Shown piece after piece: positions 4,269-28,618 of a stretch of 38,522 nt of DNA; position 1 is the stretch's first letter, and the number at the start of each line of letters is the position of its first letter. The DNA is from Campylobacteraceae bacterium. GTDB lineage: Bacteria; Campylobacterota; Campylobacteria; Campylobacterales; Sulfurovaceae. Under the pieces are notes generated by a model. That model did no database searches. It worked only from the letters and a program-made list of their open reading frames with translations, and was not told the origin of the DNA. The translations under genes and the position numbers were made by a program. Location: positions 1-38,522 of the forward strand of contig JAMOOX010000092.1 in NCBI GenBank assembly GCA_027065045.1, read 5' to 3'.

Positions 4269-4345
4269 CGGAGTGTAGCGCAGTCTGGTAGCGCACCTGG
4301 TTTGGGACCAGGGGGTCGAAGGTTCGAGTCCTTTCACTCCGACCA
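4269..4345 (+). tRNA. tRNA-Pro (anticodon UGG)
   Basis: The full cloverleaf is readable: acceptor CGGAGTG pairs with CACTCCG, the anticodon loop is TTTGGGA giving UGG, and the TTCGAGT T-loop is followed by an encoded CCA (4343-4345). It is first in a five-tRNA transcript. Confidence 0.97.
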
Positions 4346-4385
4346 TTAAAATAATAATAAATAAGTAATAAACGCTAATGTCTGT

Positions 4386-4462
4386 GGTGGATGTAGCTCA
4401 GTTGGTAGAGCCCTGGTTTGTGGTGCCGGTTGTCGCGGGTTCGAGCCCCGTCGTCCACCCCA
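4386..4462 (+). tRNA. tRNA-His (anticodon GUG)
   Basis: Acceptor GTGGATG (4387-4393) pairs with CGTCCAC, with the histidine-specific extra G at -1 (4386) facing discriminator C73 (4459). The anticodon loop TTGTGGT gives GUG. CCA is encoded at 4460-4462. The G-1:C73 pair is the identity element for HisRS. Confidence 0.97.
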
Positions 4463-4482
4463 TAATAATTGGAACAGTTGGA

Positions 4483-4559
4483 GCGCTAGTGGCTCAACTG
4501 GATAGAGCATCAGACTTCGGATCTGAGGGTTAGGGGTTCAAGTCCTCTCTGGCGTACCA
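4483..4559 (+). tRNA. tRNA-Arg (anticodon UCG)
   Basis: Acceptor GCGCTAG pairs with CTGGCGT (with G-U pairs at the first and fifth positions). The anticodon arm TCAGA-CTTCGGA-TCTGA gives UCG. A discriminator A and encoded CCA end the gene. Confidence 0.96.
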
Positions 4560-4582
4560 TTTATTACTATTTAAAAATTTGT

Positions 4583-4659
4583 GCATCCATAGCTCAGCTG
4601 GATAGAGCATCGCCCTTCTAAGGCGAGGGTCTTAGGTTCGAATCCTAATGGATGTACCA
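4583..4659 (+). tRNA. tRNA-Arg (anticodon UCU)
   Basis: Acceptor GCATCCA pairs with TGGATGT. The anticodon arm TCGCC-CTTCTAA-GGCGA gives UCU, which reads AGA, by far the commonest arginine codon in the genes of this window. CCA is encoded at 4657-4659. Confidence 0.97.
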
Positions 4660-4704
4660 CTTAAGTTTTATTATGATATAATAAACTTTAACTTACAATT
4701 ATAT

Positions 4705-4789
4705 GCGGATGTGGTGAAATTGGTATACACGCCAGACTTAGGATCTGGTGCTTCACGGCGTGGAGGTTCGAGTCCTCTCATCCGCACCA
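4705..4789 (+). tRNA. tRNA-Leu (anticodon UAG)
   Basis: This is a class II tRNA of 85 nt with a long variable arm. Acceptor GCGGATG pairs with CATCCGC, the anticodon arm CCAGA-CTTAGGA-TCTGG gives UAG, and CCA is encoded. It ends the five-gene cluster. No terminator hairpin is visible in the 83 bases that follow. Confidence 0.97.
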
Positions 4790-4872: not shown

Positions 4873-5763
4873 ATGAATGATGATTTAACCATTCTTTATG
4901 TTGAAGATGAAGATGGCATAAGAAAACAGTTAACACGATTTTTAGAATATTTTTCATCTTCATTATATTTAGCTTCTAATGGCAAAGAGGGATTGGAATT
5001 ATATAAAGAGTATAATCCTGATATAGTTATTTCAGATATTAAAATGCCAATTATGAATGGTATAGATATGGTTAAAAATATAAAAAATATAAATCCAAAA
5101 CAGCATATAATTTTTATAACTGCTCATAGTGAGAGTCAATTTTTTATTGATGCTATTGATATGCATGTTGATGGGTATATTTTAAAACCTATTAGCTTAG
5201 ATAAGTTAGAAAATAAATTAGAAGATATAAAAGAACATATAAAATTAAAAGAGTATTATATTGCACACCAGCAAGAGTTAGAAAATAGAGCATATAGAGA
5301 TGGACTTACACAAGTATATAATCGCAGATATTTTGAAGAAGCGTTTGATAGAGAGATAGCAAGGTATCAACGAGAAGATAGACCTTTGAGTATATTTATG
5401 TTAGATATAGATAAATTTAAAAATATCAATGATAATTATGGGCATCAAATAGGTGATGAGATATTAAAAGGATTGGTGCATATTATAAAAAATAATATTA
5501 GAGCAATAGATATATTTGCACGATGGGGAGGAGAGGAGTTTGTCTGTATCTTGCCAAATACAATACGCAAAGATGCTATATTAGTAGCCCAACATTTAAG
5601 AGAAATTATAGAAAAACATAATTTTATAGATAATATTAGTGTTACTTGCAGTTTTGGAGTAGCAGAATTTAATCAAGAAGATACTAAAGAGTCTATAGTT
5701 AAAAGAGTAGATAAAGCATTATATCTTGCCAAAGAGGGCGGTAGAAATAGAGTAGAGATATAG
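4873..5763 (+). CDS. Response regulator with GGDEF diguanylate cyclase output
   Basis: This 296-residue cytoplasmic protein is a two-component response regulator that should make cyclic di-GMP from two GTP when phosphorylated. The N-terminal receiver domain has the acidic pair near residues 11-13, phospho-acceptor D55, T83 and K105. A short linker helix leads to a GGDEF domain from about 140, with the intact active-site loop GGEEF at 219-223. An RxxD product-inhibition site (R210, D213) stands five residues before it, so feedback inhibition is likely. It is followed after three bases by a sensor kinase gene that is probably its partner. That kinase gene is interrupted, so the input may now be lost or altered. 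Confidence 0.95.
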   Translation: MNDDLTILYVEDEDGIRKQLTRFLEYFSSSLYLASNGKEGLELYKEYNPDIVISDIKMPIMNGIDMVKNIKNINPKQHIIFITAHSESQFFIDAIDMHVDGYILKPISLDKLENKLEDIKEHIKLKEYYIAHQQELENRAYRDGLTQVYNRRYFEEAFDREIARYQREDRPLSIFMLDIDKFKNINDNYGHQIGDEILKGLVHIIKNNIRAIDIFARWGGEEFVCILPNTIRKDAILVAQHLREIIEKHNFIDNISVTCSFGVAEFNQEDTKESIVKRVDKALYLAKEGGRNRVEI

Positions 5764-5766
5764 GCT

Positions 5767-7542
5767 ATGAATAAAAATATTATTATTTTGGTCATATTTA
5801 TTTTTCTTACTATTAATGGAGTAGTTTATAAAGTAACAAGTATAAATGCACAAGAGAGAATAGATATGGCAATTCATGATAGTATGAAAATGTTAAAAAC
5901 TCATTATGAGATACTTCTTCATACACAGAAATTAACAGCTAATGCATTATATAGTTTTACAGTTGAAGATGAAAAGTTTATAGATATATTATCACAAGCT
6001 AGATATGCTTCAAAAGATAGACAAAATACTCTTAGAGAAGAGATGAAAAAGCTTTTATACAAGAGATATGAGAGAGCAAAAATAAAAGGTGTATTACAGT
6101 ATCATTTTATTTTTCCTAATAATGTCGTATTTCTAAGAATGCATAAACCTAGTAAGTTTGGAGATGACCTCACATATATCAGAGATGATTTTAGATATAC
6201 AAATCAAACAAAAAAGGCTATAAGAGGATTTACACAAGGAAGAACATCCCATGGCTTTAGAAATACTTTTCCTATATTTGATAAAAATGGTACTCATATT
6301 GGAGCTATGGAAATATCTTTTAAGAGTGAAGATTTTCAAAATTATTTAACCAAAATAAGTCATATCCATACACATTTTTTAGTAAATAAAAGTATCTTTG
6401 ATTCTAAATCTTGGAAGAGAGATAGTATGATTTTGAAATATTCGCAAAGTGCAGAATATAAAGATTGTATGATAGCCATTACAAAAAACCACTCTAAAAA
6501 GCAGTGTATTGATAATAATATCAAAAGATTAAAAGAGATAAGAGATATTATAGATAGTGGTATTAAAAAAGGTGAAAATTTTAGTTCTTATATTACTGAT
6601 GATGATAGTACAATAATAGTATCATTTTTAGCAATTAAAAATATTAAACATAAAACAGTAGCATGGTTAGTATCTTATAAAGAGAATGAGTTTATAAAGT
6701 TTACTATTAATGCACTCTTTTATATTAGATTTTTTACTTTTATATTTACTTTGATTATCTTATATTTTATTATTTTACAGATAGAGGCAAAAGAGGAGTT
6801 GAAATCTCTACAAAAAGACCTTGAAAGAAAAGTAACTAATGCTTTAAAAGAAAATCTTAAACAGCAAGAGATACTACAATATCAAAATAAATTAGCATCA
6901 ATGGGAGAGATGATAGGTGCAATAGCTCATCAATGGAGACAACCTTTAAATGAGTTAGGGCTTAGTATTCAAAATCTAAAATATGATTATAAATCAAACT
7001 TAATAGATGAAAAGTTTATAAAAGAGTTTATATAGTATAATAAAAAAACAATAATGTTTATGAGTAGAACGATTGATGATTTTAGGAATTTTTTTAGGAT
7101 AGATAAAAATAGAGAGAACTTCAAAGTAAAAGATGCCACAAAATCTGTAATTATTATGTTATCAGCACAACTTAAAAGTAATGGTATAACTATTAATATT
7201 AATGGAGATGAGTTTTTATATAATGGACTTAAACGAGAATATCAACAAGTCATACTTAATATTATAAATAATGCAAAAGATGTACTTATCTATAATAAAA
7301 TAGAAAATCCTATGATAAATATAGAGTTAAATTCTAATAAAATAATTATATCAGATAACGCTGGAGGAATCCCAAAAAATATTATAGATAGAGTATTTGA
7401 ACCATATTTTACCACCAAAGAACAAGGTAAAGGTACAGGTATGGGATTATATATGTCTAAGATGATAATAGAAGATAATATGAATGGAGAATTAAGCGTT
7501 GTAAATAGTGATAATGGAGCTATATTTATGATAAAACTATAA
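5767..7542 (+). pseudogene. Dual-Cache sensor histidine kinase interrupted by an in-frame TAG
   Basis: One continuous reading frame of 592 codons is broken only by TAG at 7033-7035. Before the stop (422 codons) lie a membrane helix (about 4-22), an extracytoplasmic sensor resembling the dCache_3 domain (FLRMHKPSKFGDD and GTHIGAMEISF motifs), a second membrane helix (about 317-338), a coiled coil and the H-box AIAHQWRQPL with H388. After it, in the same frame, come the second dimerisation helix (FMSRTIDDFRNFF) and an HATPase domain with N, G1 (DNAGGIP) and G2 (GTGMGLY) boxes. The two parts together equal a normal kinase length. A nonsense mutation, readthrough, or an assembly error are all possible. 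The second part has its own ATG at 7054 but no clear ribosome site. Confidence 0.88.
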
Positions 7543-7577: not shown

Positions 7578-7606
7578 TTGACAAAACTTTTAAATTTGTA
7601 TATAAT
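7578..7606 (+). promoter_or_regulatory. Consensus sigma-70 promoter of the tRNA-tuf operon
   Basis: A perfect TTGACA (7578-7583) and a perfect TATAAT (7601-7606) are 17 bases apart, 39 bases before tRNA-Thr. This is the strongest promoter match in the window and suits a stable-RNA and EF-Tu transcript. Confidence 0.9.
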
Positions 7607-7645: not shown

Positions 7646-7722
7646 GCTGATGTAGCTCAGCTGGCTAGAGCAGCTGATTTGTAATCAGCAGGTCGGGGGT
7701 TCGAGTCCCTTCATCAGCTCCA
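7646..7722 (+). tRNA. tRNA-Thr (anticodon UGU)
   Basis: Acceptor GCTGATG pairs with CATCAGC. The anticodon arm GCTGA-TTTGTAA-TCAGC gives UGU. CCA is encoded at 7720-7722. It is the first of the Thr-Tyr-Gly-Thr set that precedes tuf in many proteobacteria (compare thrU-tyrU-glyT-thrT-tufB of E. coli). Confidence 0.97.
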
Positions 7723-7772
7723 TAAATATAATTATCAGTGTTTGACCAGTAAAATTAAAATCATAATGAATT

Positions 7773-7857
7773 GGTGGGTTACTCAAGTGGCCAACGAGGG
7801 CGGATTGTAAATCCGCTGACTACGTCTTCGAAGGTTCGAATCCTTCACCCACCACCA
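7773..7857 (+). tRNA. tRNA-Tyr (anticodon GUA)
   Basis: This is a class II tRNA of 85 nt with a long variable arm. Acceptor GGTGGGT pairs with ACCCACC, and the anticodon arm GCGGA-TTGTAAA-TCCGC gives GUA. Discriminator A and encoded CCA follow. Confidence 0.97.
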
Positions 7858-7863
7858 TTATTT

Positions 7864-7939
7864 GCGGGAATAGCTCAGTGGCTAGAGCCCCTGCCTTCCA
7901 AGCAGGATGTCGCGAGTTCGAATCTCGTTTCCCGCTCCA
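7864..7939 (+). tRNA. tRNA-Gly (anticodon UCC)
   Basis: Acceptor GCGGGAA pairs with TTCCCGC. The anticodon arm CCTGC-CTTCCAA-GCAGG gives UCC. CCA is encoded. It lies six bases after tRNA-Tyr, so the two are processed from one precursor. The 130 bases after it (7940-8069) hold nothing I can assign. Confidence 0.97.
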
Positions 7940-8069
7940 TAAGATTATAACTATTAACTGGAAGCTGTGTGAATTGTATTGATAACCTTCAAATAATTTT
8001 TACACACTTACAAAACAAATACTAATAAAACAAATATAAATATAATATACTGTCAATTTTAGACATTAT

Positions 8070-8144
<75 letters not shown>

Positions 8145-25387: not shown

Positions 25388-28300
25388 TTAATTTTTCAGT
25401 AAATCTAATAGTTCTGTTGATGATAGTTTCTCATCAGTTGAGTTATTATATAGATTATCTTGTAACCGTTTTTTACTTTTTTGAAGCTCTATAATTTTCT
25501 CTTCAATAGAGTTTTGGACAATTAATTTATATACAAATACAGCTTTTGTTTGTCCTATTCTATATGCTCTATCTGTTGCTTGATTTTCTGTTGCAGGGTT
25601 CCACCATGGGTCATAATGAATTACTGTATCAGCTTCAACGAGGTTTAATCCCACTCCACCAGCTTTAAGAGAAATCAAGAATATATCACTCTTACCACTT
25701 CTAAACTCATCTATTACCTTATCTCTATTTTTGGTAGAACCTACAAGTTTGGAATATCTTACTTCTCTCTCTATCAAGGCATTTTCTATAATTTTGAGCA
25801 TTGATGTAAATTGAGAGAATACTAATATTTTTCTTCCCTCTTCTAAAAGCTCTTCAATTAGTTCTAAAAATAGCTCTAATTTAGCAGATACCTCTACATC
25901 AATTTTCTGTTTTAATTTTAGTAATGATGGATGACAACATACTTGTCTAAGTTTAAGAAGTGCATCTAAAATAGTGATATGACTACTCTCTACACCTTGT
26001 TTAGATATAAGGTCTCTCACCTCTTTTTCCATAGATACTCTAATAGATTCATAAAGTTGAGATTGTTTCTCATCAAACTCAACATATTTGATAATCTCTG
26101 TTTTATCAGGAAGTTCATCAATTACACTATCTTTGGTACGACGGAGCATAAATGGTTTAATTTTTCTATTTAATATATCTTGTCTTCCTGCTACATTCTC
26201 TTTTTCAATTGGATTTTGATAAAATCTCTTAAACATTGTAAGAGTGCTTAAAAACCCTGGCATTAAAAAGCTAAATATACTCCATAGCTCTCCTAAATGG
26301 TTCTCAATAGGAGTACCACTCATAGCTATTCTATAATCACTATTAAATGATTTTATAGCTATTGCCATCTTTGTTCGTGGGTTTTTAATCTTTTGAGCCT
26401 CATCTAATATTACATATAAAAAATCTATTGTTTCAAATATTTTTTCATCTTTTGAAGCAAGTTGATATGTAGTTAATATTATATCATAGTTATTTATCTC
26501 ATCTAAAAGCTCAAATCTATTTGAACCATATAGAGATAAAACTCTTAAATCTGGTGTAAATTTCTTGGCTTCACTTTTCCAGTTTCCAATAAGAGAAGTT
26601 GGCATTACTATTAGAGATGGTTTGGTAAGTTTACCTCTCTCTTTGAGATTTTGAAGATGTGATAATACTTGAAGAGTTTTACCTAGTCCCATATCATCTG
26701 CTAGTATCCCACTAAAATTATACTCATATAAGAAGTTTAACCACTCCAAACCTTTTTGTTGATAATCTCTAAGTTCAGCATTTAGATTTGTAGGTGGTTC
26801 TATCTCTTCAATTCCTTCAAAATTAGTTAATCTTTTAGATAATCCCAATAAATCTTTGTTTCCACTCCACTCAATATTGCTATCTTTAAAAGGCTCTATT
26901 AGGTGCATATTATACTGTTCTATCTCAATACTATCTTTTTTGTTATCTTTGATTGTATCAAATAGATTAAAAATAGTTTTAAGCATTGGTTCTACCGTTG
27001 ATGATTCTATCTTTATAAAATGATTTAGAGCAATCTCTACATTTATATATTTAGGAAGTTTTGTAATATCACTAACTTGTTTCATTAATGCACTAATAAT
27101 TGATAAAATTGGTATCTTTTTATCTCCAATTTCAATATTAAATGATAACTCTAACCAACTATTACTATTATTGCTAATATTAGCTACAATTCTATCTGGT
27201 TCATCAAATATAAGAGAGAATTTCTCATCAAATTCTACTGTCCAACCTTGTTTTTGTAATATTACTACCCCAATTTCTAAAAACTCTCTCCAAATATCAA
27301 GTGAGATTATCATACTACTATCAGTGGTAATTAGAGTAATATCTTTAGACTCCTGATATGGGCTAAATCCAATATTTTTAAGCTCATCTATATAAGTATT
27401 TTCTACATCAAAATCTCTCATAATATTAAGTGCATAACCATCTTTAAGCACTTTTTTAGACTCTACTAGAGGCTTATATGCTATCTTATTATCATCATAC
27501 TCAAAACTAAGCTTTAAAATATGTTCAATCTTGCCATCTATATCATCTACTGTGATATATAATTTTGGAGTGGGTTCTACATCTAATATTTTAATCTCAT
27601 AATGTGATGGTGGTTCAATATCAAGGTATGGAAGTTTGGTATCAATCTTTGATACAACCTCATCTAAATAGTAGTTTGGTATCTTTGGAGATATTAAAAT
27701 ATCACGCAAAAATGAATCATTATAATATGAGGAGAGTTCATATATAGTATTTAATTTAATCACTGAAATAGGTGTAGTATATAATATAAACTCATCTACA
27801 ATAGATGATACTAAAATAGTGTTATCATCATCTATATTACTCCATCTAAATGATAACTCCTCTTTCTCTCTTGATAGAGTTAGAGGTATCTCTCCACCAT
27901 CAATATAACATCTATTAGTAGATACCATATACTCTAATAGCTTTCTACCCATTTTACCACTAAGCTTTAGGGTATCTTGATGTTTTGGGGCTAGAGAGTT
28001 CATAATTTTTAGAATATCAATATCATCACTTGTTAAAAAACTATAATTATAATCATTATAAGCAAGACTTCTAATATCTACACTTGTACCCTTGCCTAGA
28101 GAACCATTTTTGATAATTTTAGTTTTATAACATTTAATATCATCTCTATTAGGATTACTACTTCGCACTATCTTATATGCCAAAAATAGCTCATTATCAT
28201 CTTCTGTTTTGGTTTGAGTAGATGATATTAATCTATTTACCCAACTATCAATATTGATAGTTGGGTCATTTTTAATCTCAATAGATATATTACTAGCACT

Positions 28301-28618
28301 CTCAATAGCCTCATTTTTATCATTGATATGTTGCATTATAACAGCTACAATATGCTCACAATTGATACAAGTCTCACAGCTACAACCACCATCAATAACA
28401 ATCTTATCATCATTACGATATATATTTACCTCTTGTTCGTAAGGTGTATCATCATCACTATCTTCTACTACTGATAATATTTTTATCTCTTTTCTTGATA
28501 CCCCTAAAGAGTCATACTCTAATACACGATTATGTGAAAATAACGCCTCTCCTAAAGAGAATATATCATCAGAAAAATTACCCTTTATATCATCTACACT
28601 AAAGTTAAAAAATCTCAT
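25388..28618 (-). CDS. SNF2-family helicase with N-terminal SWIM zinc finger
   Basis: This 1076-residue protein is a bacterial Swi2/Snf2 ATPase, a DNA translocase of superfamily II whose bacterial roles are poorly known; RapA-like polymerase recycling or DNA repair are possibilities. A SWIM-type zinc motif lies at C79, C81, C84/C87, H89. The middle (about 250-620) resembles the SNF2-associated region. The ATPase core has DDMGLGKT near 643, the DEAQ box near 739, and a helicase C lobe with AGGVGLNL and the motif VI region [10 protein letters not shown]. Its ATG overlaps the aroC stop by 4 bases. No nuclease or restriction partner is adjacent, so a defence role has no support here. Confidence 0.92.

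Follow-up and report, generated by a model that had tools for sequence, protein, structure and literature searches.

A two-gene signaling locus lies between two tRNA clusters in the window, the whole 38,522-nucleotide stretch of DNA that was analyzed. Its first gene encodes a REC-GGDEF response regulator and its second a sensor histidine kinase whose frame is broken by one TAG codon. Upstream of the pair are a gene that, from its sequence, we take to encode a Na+:alanine-type symporter and the tRNAs Pro-His-Arg-Arg-Leu; downstream are the tRNAs Thr-Tyr-Gly-Thr and tuf, the gene for EF-Tu. The features are as follows, with the evidence in parentheses.

4269..4789, + strand: tRNA cluster Pro-His-Arg-Arg-Leu (synteny with the cluster beside REC-GGDEF and kinase genes in a genus-mate)
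4873..5763, + strand: intact REC-GGDEF response regulator, the likely partner of the kinase, ending 3 bases before the kinase ATG (Pfam, motifs)
5767..7542, + strand: sensor histidine kinase frame, 591 codons counting the TAG as one (frame, Pfam, codon usage)
5767..7032, + strand: part before the stop, with an N-terminal membrane helix, dCache_3-like periplasmic sensor, second membrane helix and DHp helix 1 with His388 (Pfam, H-box, model)
7033..7035, + strand: in-frame TAG at codon 423, in DHp helix 2; Glu at this column in the closest homologues (sequence, model)
7036..7542, + strand: part after the stop, with the remainder of DHp helix 2 and HATPase_c and no further lesion (Pfam, codon usage, conserved columns, model)
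7054..7542, + strand: ORF of 162 aa from an internal ATG, starting inside helix 2 (ORF list, sequence, model)
7646..8144, + strand: tRNA cluster Thr-Tyr-Gly-Thr, before tuf (synteny with another genus-mate, which lacks the pair there)

A perfect TTGACA-17-TATAAT promoter-like site is found at 7578-7606, just ahead of the tRNA-Thr cluster. Elsewhere in the window, a gene for an SNF2-type helicase of 1076 aa (25388-28618, minus strand) sits amid housekeeping genes, its neighbors encoding a phosphoglucomutase-type enzyme, chorismate synthase, and ribonuclease III.

The cyclase and the interrupted kinase

Both domains of the cyclase, PF00072 and PF00990, score above their cut-offs. The protein retains the phospho-acceptor Asp55 of the REC domain, a GGEEF motif, and an RxxD inhibition site (RAID) five residues ahead of it, and thus bears out an earlier description of this neighbor as intact, inhibition site included. 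The closest NCBIfam models are PleD and DgcR, both below cut-off. An adjacent REC-GGDEF gene followed by a kinase gene was also found in three other places (G001, L045, and G011). This recurrence supports a partnership between kinase and cyclase, and the two probably form a recurring two-component module, as judged from gene order.

The kinase frame runs from the ATG at 5767 to the TAA at 7540-7542 and comprises 422 codons, the TAG, and 168 sense codons. The TAG is the single break, and a second lesion is absent. Both sides of the TAG score as coding sequence in the same frame, with codon-usage log-odds per codon of +0.14 to +0.17 upstream and +0.15 downstream. For domain searches the kinase was treated as a read-through protein, with the TAG taken as a residue. 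Pfam then placed dCache_3 at residues 88-214 and HATPase_c (PF02518; 58.1 bits against a cut-off of 26.4) at residues 490-590, after the stop; a HisKA match reached 20.8 bits, below its cut-off of 26.9. The H-box reads A-H-Q-W-R-Q-P-L, and its histidine, residue 388, is invariant in 20 homologues. The gene is thus a conventional membrane sensor histidine kinase with a dCache_3-like sensor, a DHp domain with an HQWRQP H-box, and HATPase_c, except that the TAG at codon 423 keeps DHp and ATPase from sharing one uninterrupted frame.

An AlphaFold2 model of the read-through kinase, built with 20 homologues, has a mean pLDDT of 70, the sensor part being poor. In it, DHp helix 1 forms part of a long helix that ends at residue 409, DHp helix 2 spans residues 415-440, and the ATPase domain begins near residue 450; together with the sequence, the model also predicts two membrane helices in the part before the stop. 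Codon 423 would accordingly fall in the first half of DHp helix 2, 3′ of His388 and 5′ of the ATPase domain in the model. Solved kinases align with this region in both sequence and fold, and they likewise have the H-box before the stop position and the ATPase domain after it. The preliminary description, made from the letters of the window, had reported an open frame on either side of the TAG and a stop inside the phospho-acceptor domain, with the histidine before it and the ATPase domain after it; both observations are confirmed here, and the set of interpretations that it attached to them is partly supported.

Relatives and constraint downstream of the stop

The comparison covered five genomes in the genus, three of which have a tuf gene with about 82% DNA identity; all are too distant for a same-species comparison. 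Only one (G001, record JAMOOQ010000019.1) has the same locus, with the Na+ symporter, five tRNAs, REC-GGDEF, and kinase. At this syntenic locus (L125), the symporter is 90% and the REC-GGDEF 68% identical, the five tRNAs are present, and two intact kinases and a REC-kinase follow. Another genus-mate (G004) has the block from tRNA-Thr to tuf and lacks the REC-GGDEF/kinase pair there. In a family search of 175 genomes, the best full-length kinase homologue (47%, G075) is intact, and no in-frame stop occurs among the matches listed except that of the window. Among the homologous kinase matches listed from 41 genomes, in-frame stops are confined to the window and one other (G002:C265). No relative found shares a TAG at codon 423 or a split at that place. 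The TAG column is occupied by Glu in all three of the closest kinase cores, those sharing the stretch FIEYNxKTIMFMS; across homologues it is variable, and many residues are tolerated. Relative to its intact homologues, in the genus-mate and elsewhere, the gene carries the disabling lesion that marks a pseudogene.

The relatives being too distant for dN/dS, near-invariant columns were used in its place. Of 46 near-invariant core positions after the stop, one deviates in the window, a K-to-R change at residue 449, compared with 0 to 9 in intact homologues; the sequence after the lesion thus has no sign of relaxed constraint. That only this position deviates and a second lesion is absent leaves three possibilities for the stop: recent, not real, or tolerated.

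The kinase itself is a mosaic. Its sensor half (window 5767-6786) has as its nearest match the sensor of a G001 diguanylate cyclase (56%; L126:5000-6922), and its core is closest, at about 70%, to the kinases of the syntenic G001 locus, which bear other sensors. Sensor exchange seems to be frequent in this kinase family. The genome also holds an intact paralogous kinase (L124:2444-4072; G000:C152) with a periplasmic solute-binding-like sensor similar to the one carried by the second kinase of the syntenic G001 locus. The stretch following the H-box usually sets partner specificity. We considered rescue of the interrupted kinase by this paralogue and rejected it: the cores are similar, but the post-H-box stretches differ (TVFLG versus ELGLS), and crosstalk would be conjecture.

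Explanations for the in-frame stop

The reading that fits best, to which we assign a probability of roughly two-thirds, is that of a recent nonsense allele: ordinary loss of function has made the gene a nascent pseudogene and deprived the cyclase of its own kinase. It is preferred because the downstream part shows no decay, the relative keeps its syntenic kinases intact, and in-frame stops are rare in the family; among the interpretations offered earlier, a recent loss of signal input is the one that these data favor. The intact kinase probably phosphorylated the adjacent REC-GGDEF cyclase. A single substitution would then have turned codon 423 into a stop, so that translation would end in DHp helix 2 and yield a 422-residue membrane stump carrying the phospho-acceptor histidine. 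Such a stump, lacking the ATPase domain and part of the four-helix bundle, would be expected not to autophosphorylate, and the cyclase would lose its own input and either sit idle or be driven by another kinase. As a counterpoint, a sequence error or readthrough would equally leave the part after the stop undecayed.

Interruption of the frame exceeds chance, being rare both in a base-rate scan of the same genome and among the homologous matches listed from 41 genomes. The scan, for stops that split coding-like frames, covered 872 kb in stretches and recovered, besides the window site, only a handful of further sites, some of which lie in genes that look repeat-like or mobile. The other candidate single-stop split frames are L169:18250, L181:6539, L180:3700, and L172:1991 on the minus strand and L160:8026 on the plus strand. 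So few split frames suggest ordinary gene decay rather than many substitution errors, the other hits being candidates. The contig is assigned to this genome by its tuf, which is 82% identical to those of three genus-mates. In another reading the population carries an intact gene, and the TAG is an assembly or consensus error or an allele of a minority strain that entered the consensus; this would suit a draft genome of 164 contigs and a gene otherwise undecayed. A strain-specific state, another of the readings raised earlier, would look the same as such an error in these data. We nevertheless consider an error or minority allele unlikely, given that the site lies deep in a 38.5 kb contig, far from its ends, that the codon adjoins no repeat or long homopolymer, and that so few comparable split frames were seen, which speaks against frequent substitution errors. 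When nonsense loss, readthrough, and split function are taken together, the stop is likely a real allele.

If real, the stop might lower rather than abolish kinase production, with UAG readthrough giving a low level of full-length protein. Belinky and colleagues report that in-frame stops followed by conserved coding sequence are widespread in conserved bacterial genes and propose readthrough for many of them, yet for the majority they assume no functional recoding (PMC7918605). The many residues tolerated at the TAG column would also permit it. Either a suppressor tRNA or a stop conserved among relatives would mark a readthrough gene, and neither was found. A CUA anticodon is absent from all 36 tRNA genes identified in the genome, and a suppressor tRNA was rejected on that ground; reassignment of TAG was rejected too, since in 412 kb scanned it terminates 48 of 151 long ORFs. 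UAG is an ordinary terminator here, ending both tuf and the cyclase gene. Low-level readthrough, suggested in the preliminary description, therefore lacks specific support, and we regard it as very unlikely; the idea of a stop tolerated as a regulatory state, in which trace full-length kinase made by readthrough supplies a low, noisy c-di-GMP input, is highly improbable.

A further suggestion was that a free ATPase fragment could be made from the ATG at 7054. This ATG does exist in frame, 18 bases past the stop, so reinitiation is conceivable; it is codon 430, midway through DHp helix 2, and would give a product of 162 residues. A working fragment is nonetheless unlikely because the start lies inside helix 2, the first half of which would be missing, and because the bases ahead of it, TATAATAAAAAAACAATA, contain no Shine–Dalgarno-like sequence. 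Promoter-like matches in the region do not exceed those in shuffled sequence (26 versus 22, sd 4.8). The intact paralogue, whose kinase core is 59% identical, offers a conceivable target for halves made as separate proteins, the sensor-DHp stump and the ATPase fragment acting in trans or interfering with a paralogous kinase; with such a start, the unremarkable promoter count, and no same-place split in any relative found, this is scarcely credible. A phase-variable state, also raised earlier, is without support: the change is a codon in nonrepetitive sequence, where inspection by eye found no repeat tract able to switch it, the nearest tract being seven A residues 3′ of the stop.

Relation to known systems and significance

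The interrupted kinase is an ordinary member of the known cases of kinase loss, by nonsense or frameshift, beside a surviving regulator. Kinase pseudogenes beside intact response regulators are known in Francisella (PMC7082314), and the likeness lies in a kinase gene with a disabling lesion and a regulator gene left intact; here, by contrast, the regulator makes c-di-GMP rather than binding DNA, and there is only one fresh lesion. The lone stop in an otherwise constrained-looking frame recalls the in-frame stops of PMC7918605, although the main example there is a stop common to several species and no relative found shares this one. The locus also resembles REC-GGDEF regulators of the DgcR/PleD type with an adjacent kinase in its REC and GGDEF domains, its intact GGEEF motif and inhibition site, and the kinase gene directly downstream, and differs from them in that the kinase is interrupted in this genome. 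Arcobacter butzleri RM4018 has 37 sensor kinases and five annotated pseudogenes (PMC2147049), numbers that make the loss of one kinase among many unremarkable. This species is probably distantly related, since the nearest loci found bear the labels Arcobacteraceae or Campylobacterales.

The finding matters mainly for correct annotation of this genome and as a caution on draft sequence, and no new mechanism is indicated. If the nonsense allele is real, this would be another bacterium that has dropped a sensory input to c-di-GMP signaling and kept the output enzyme, before further decay.
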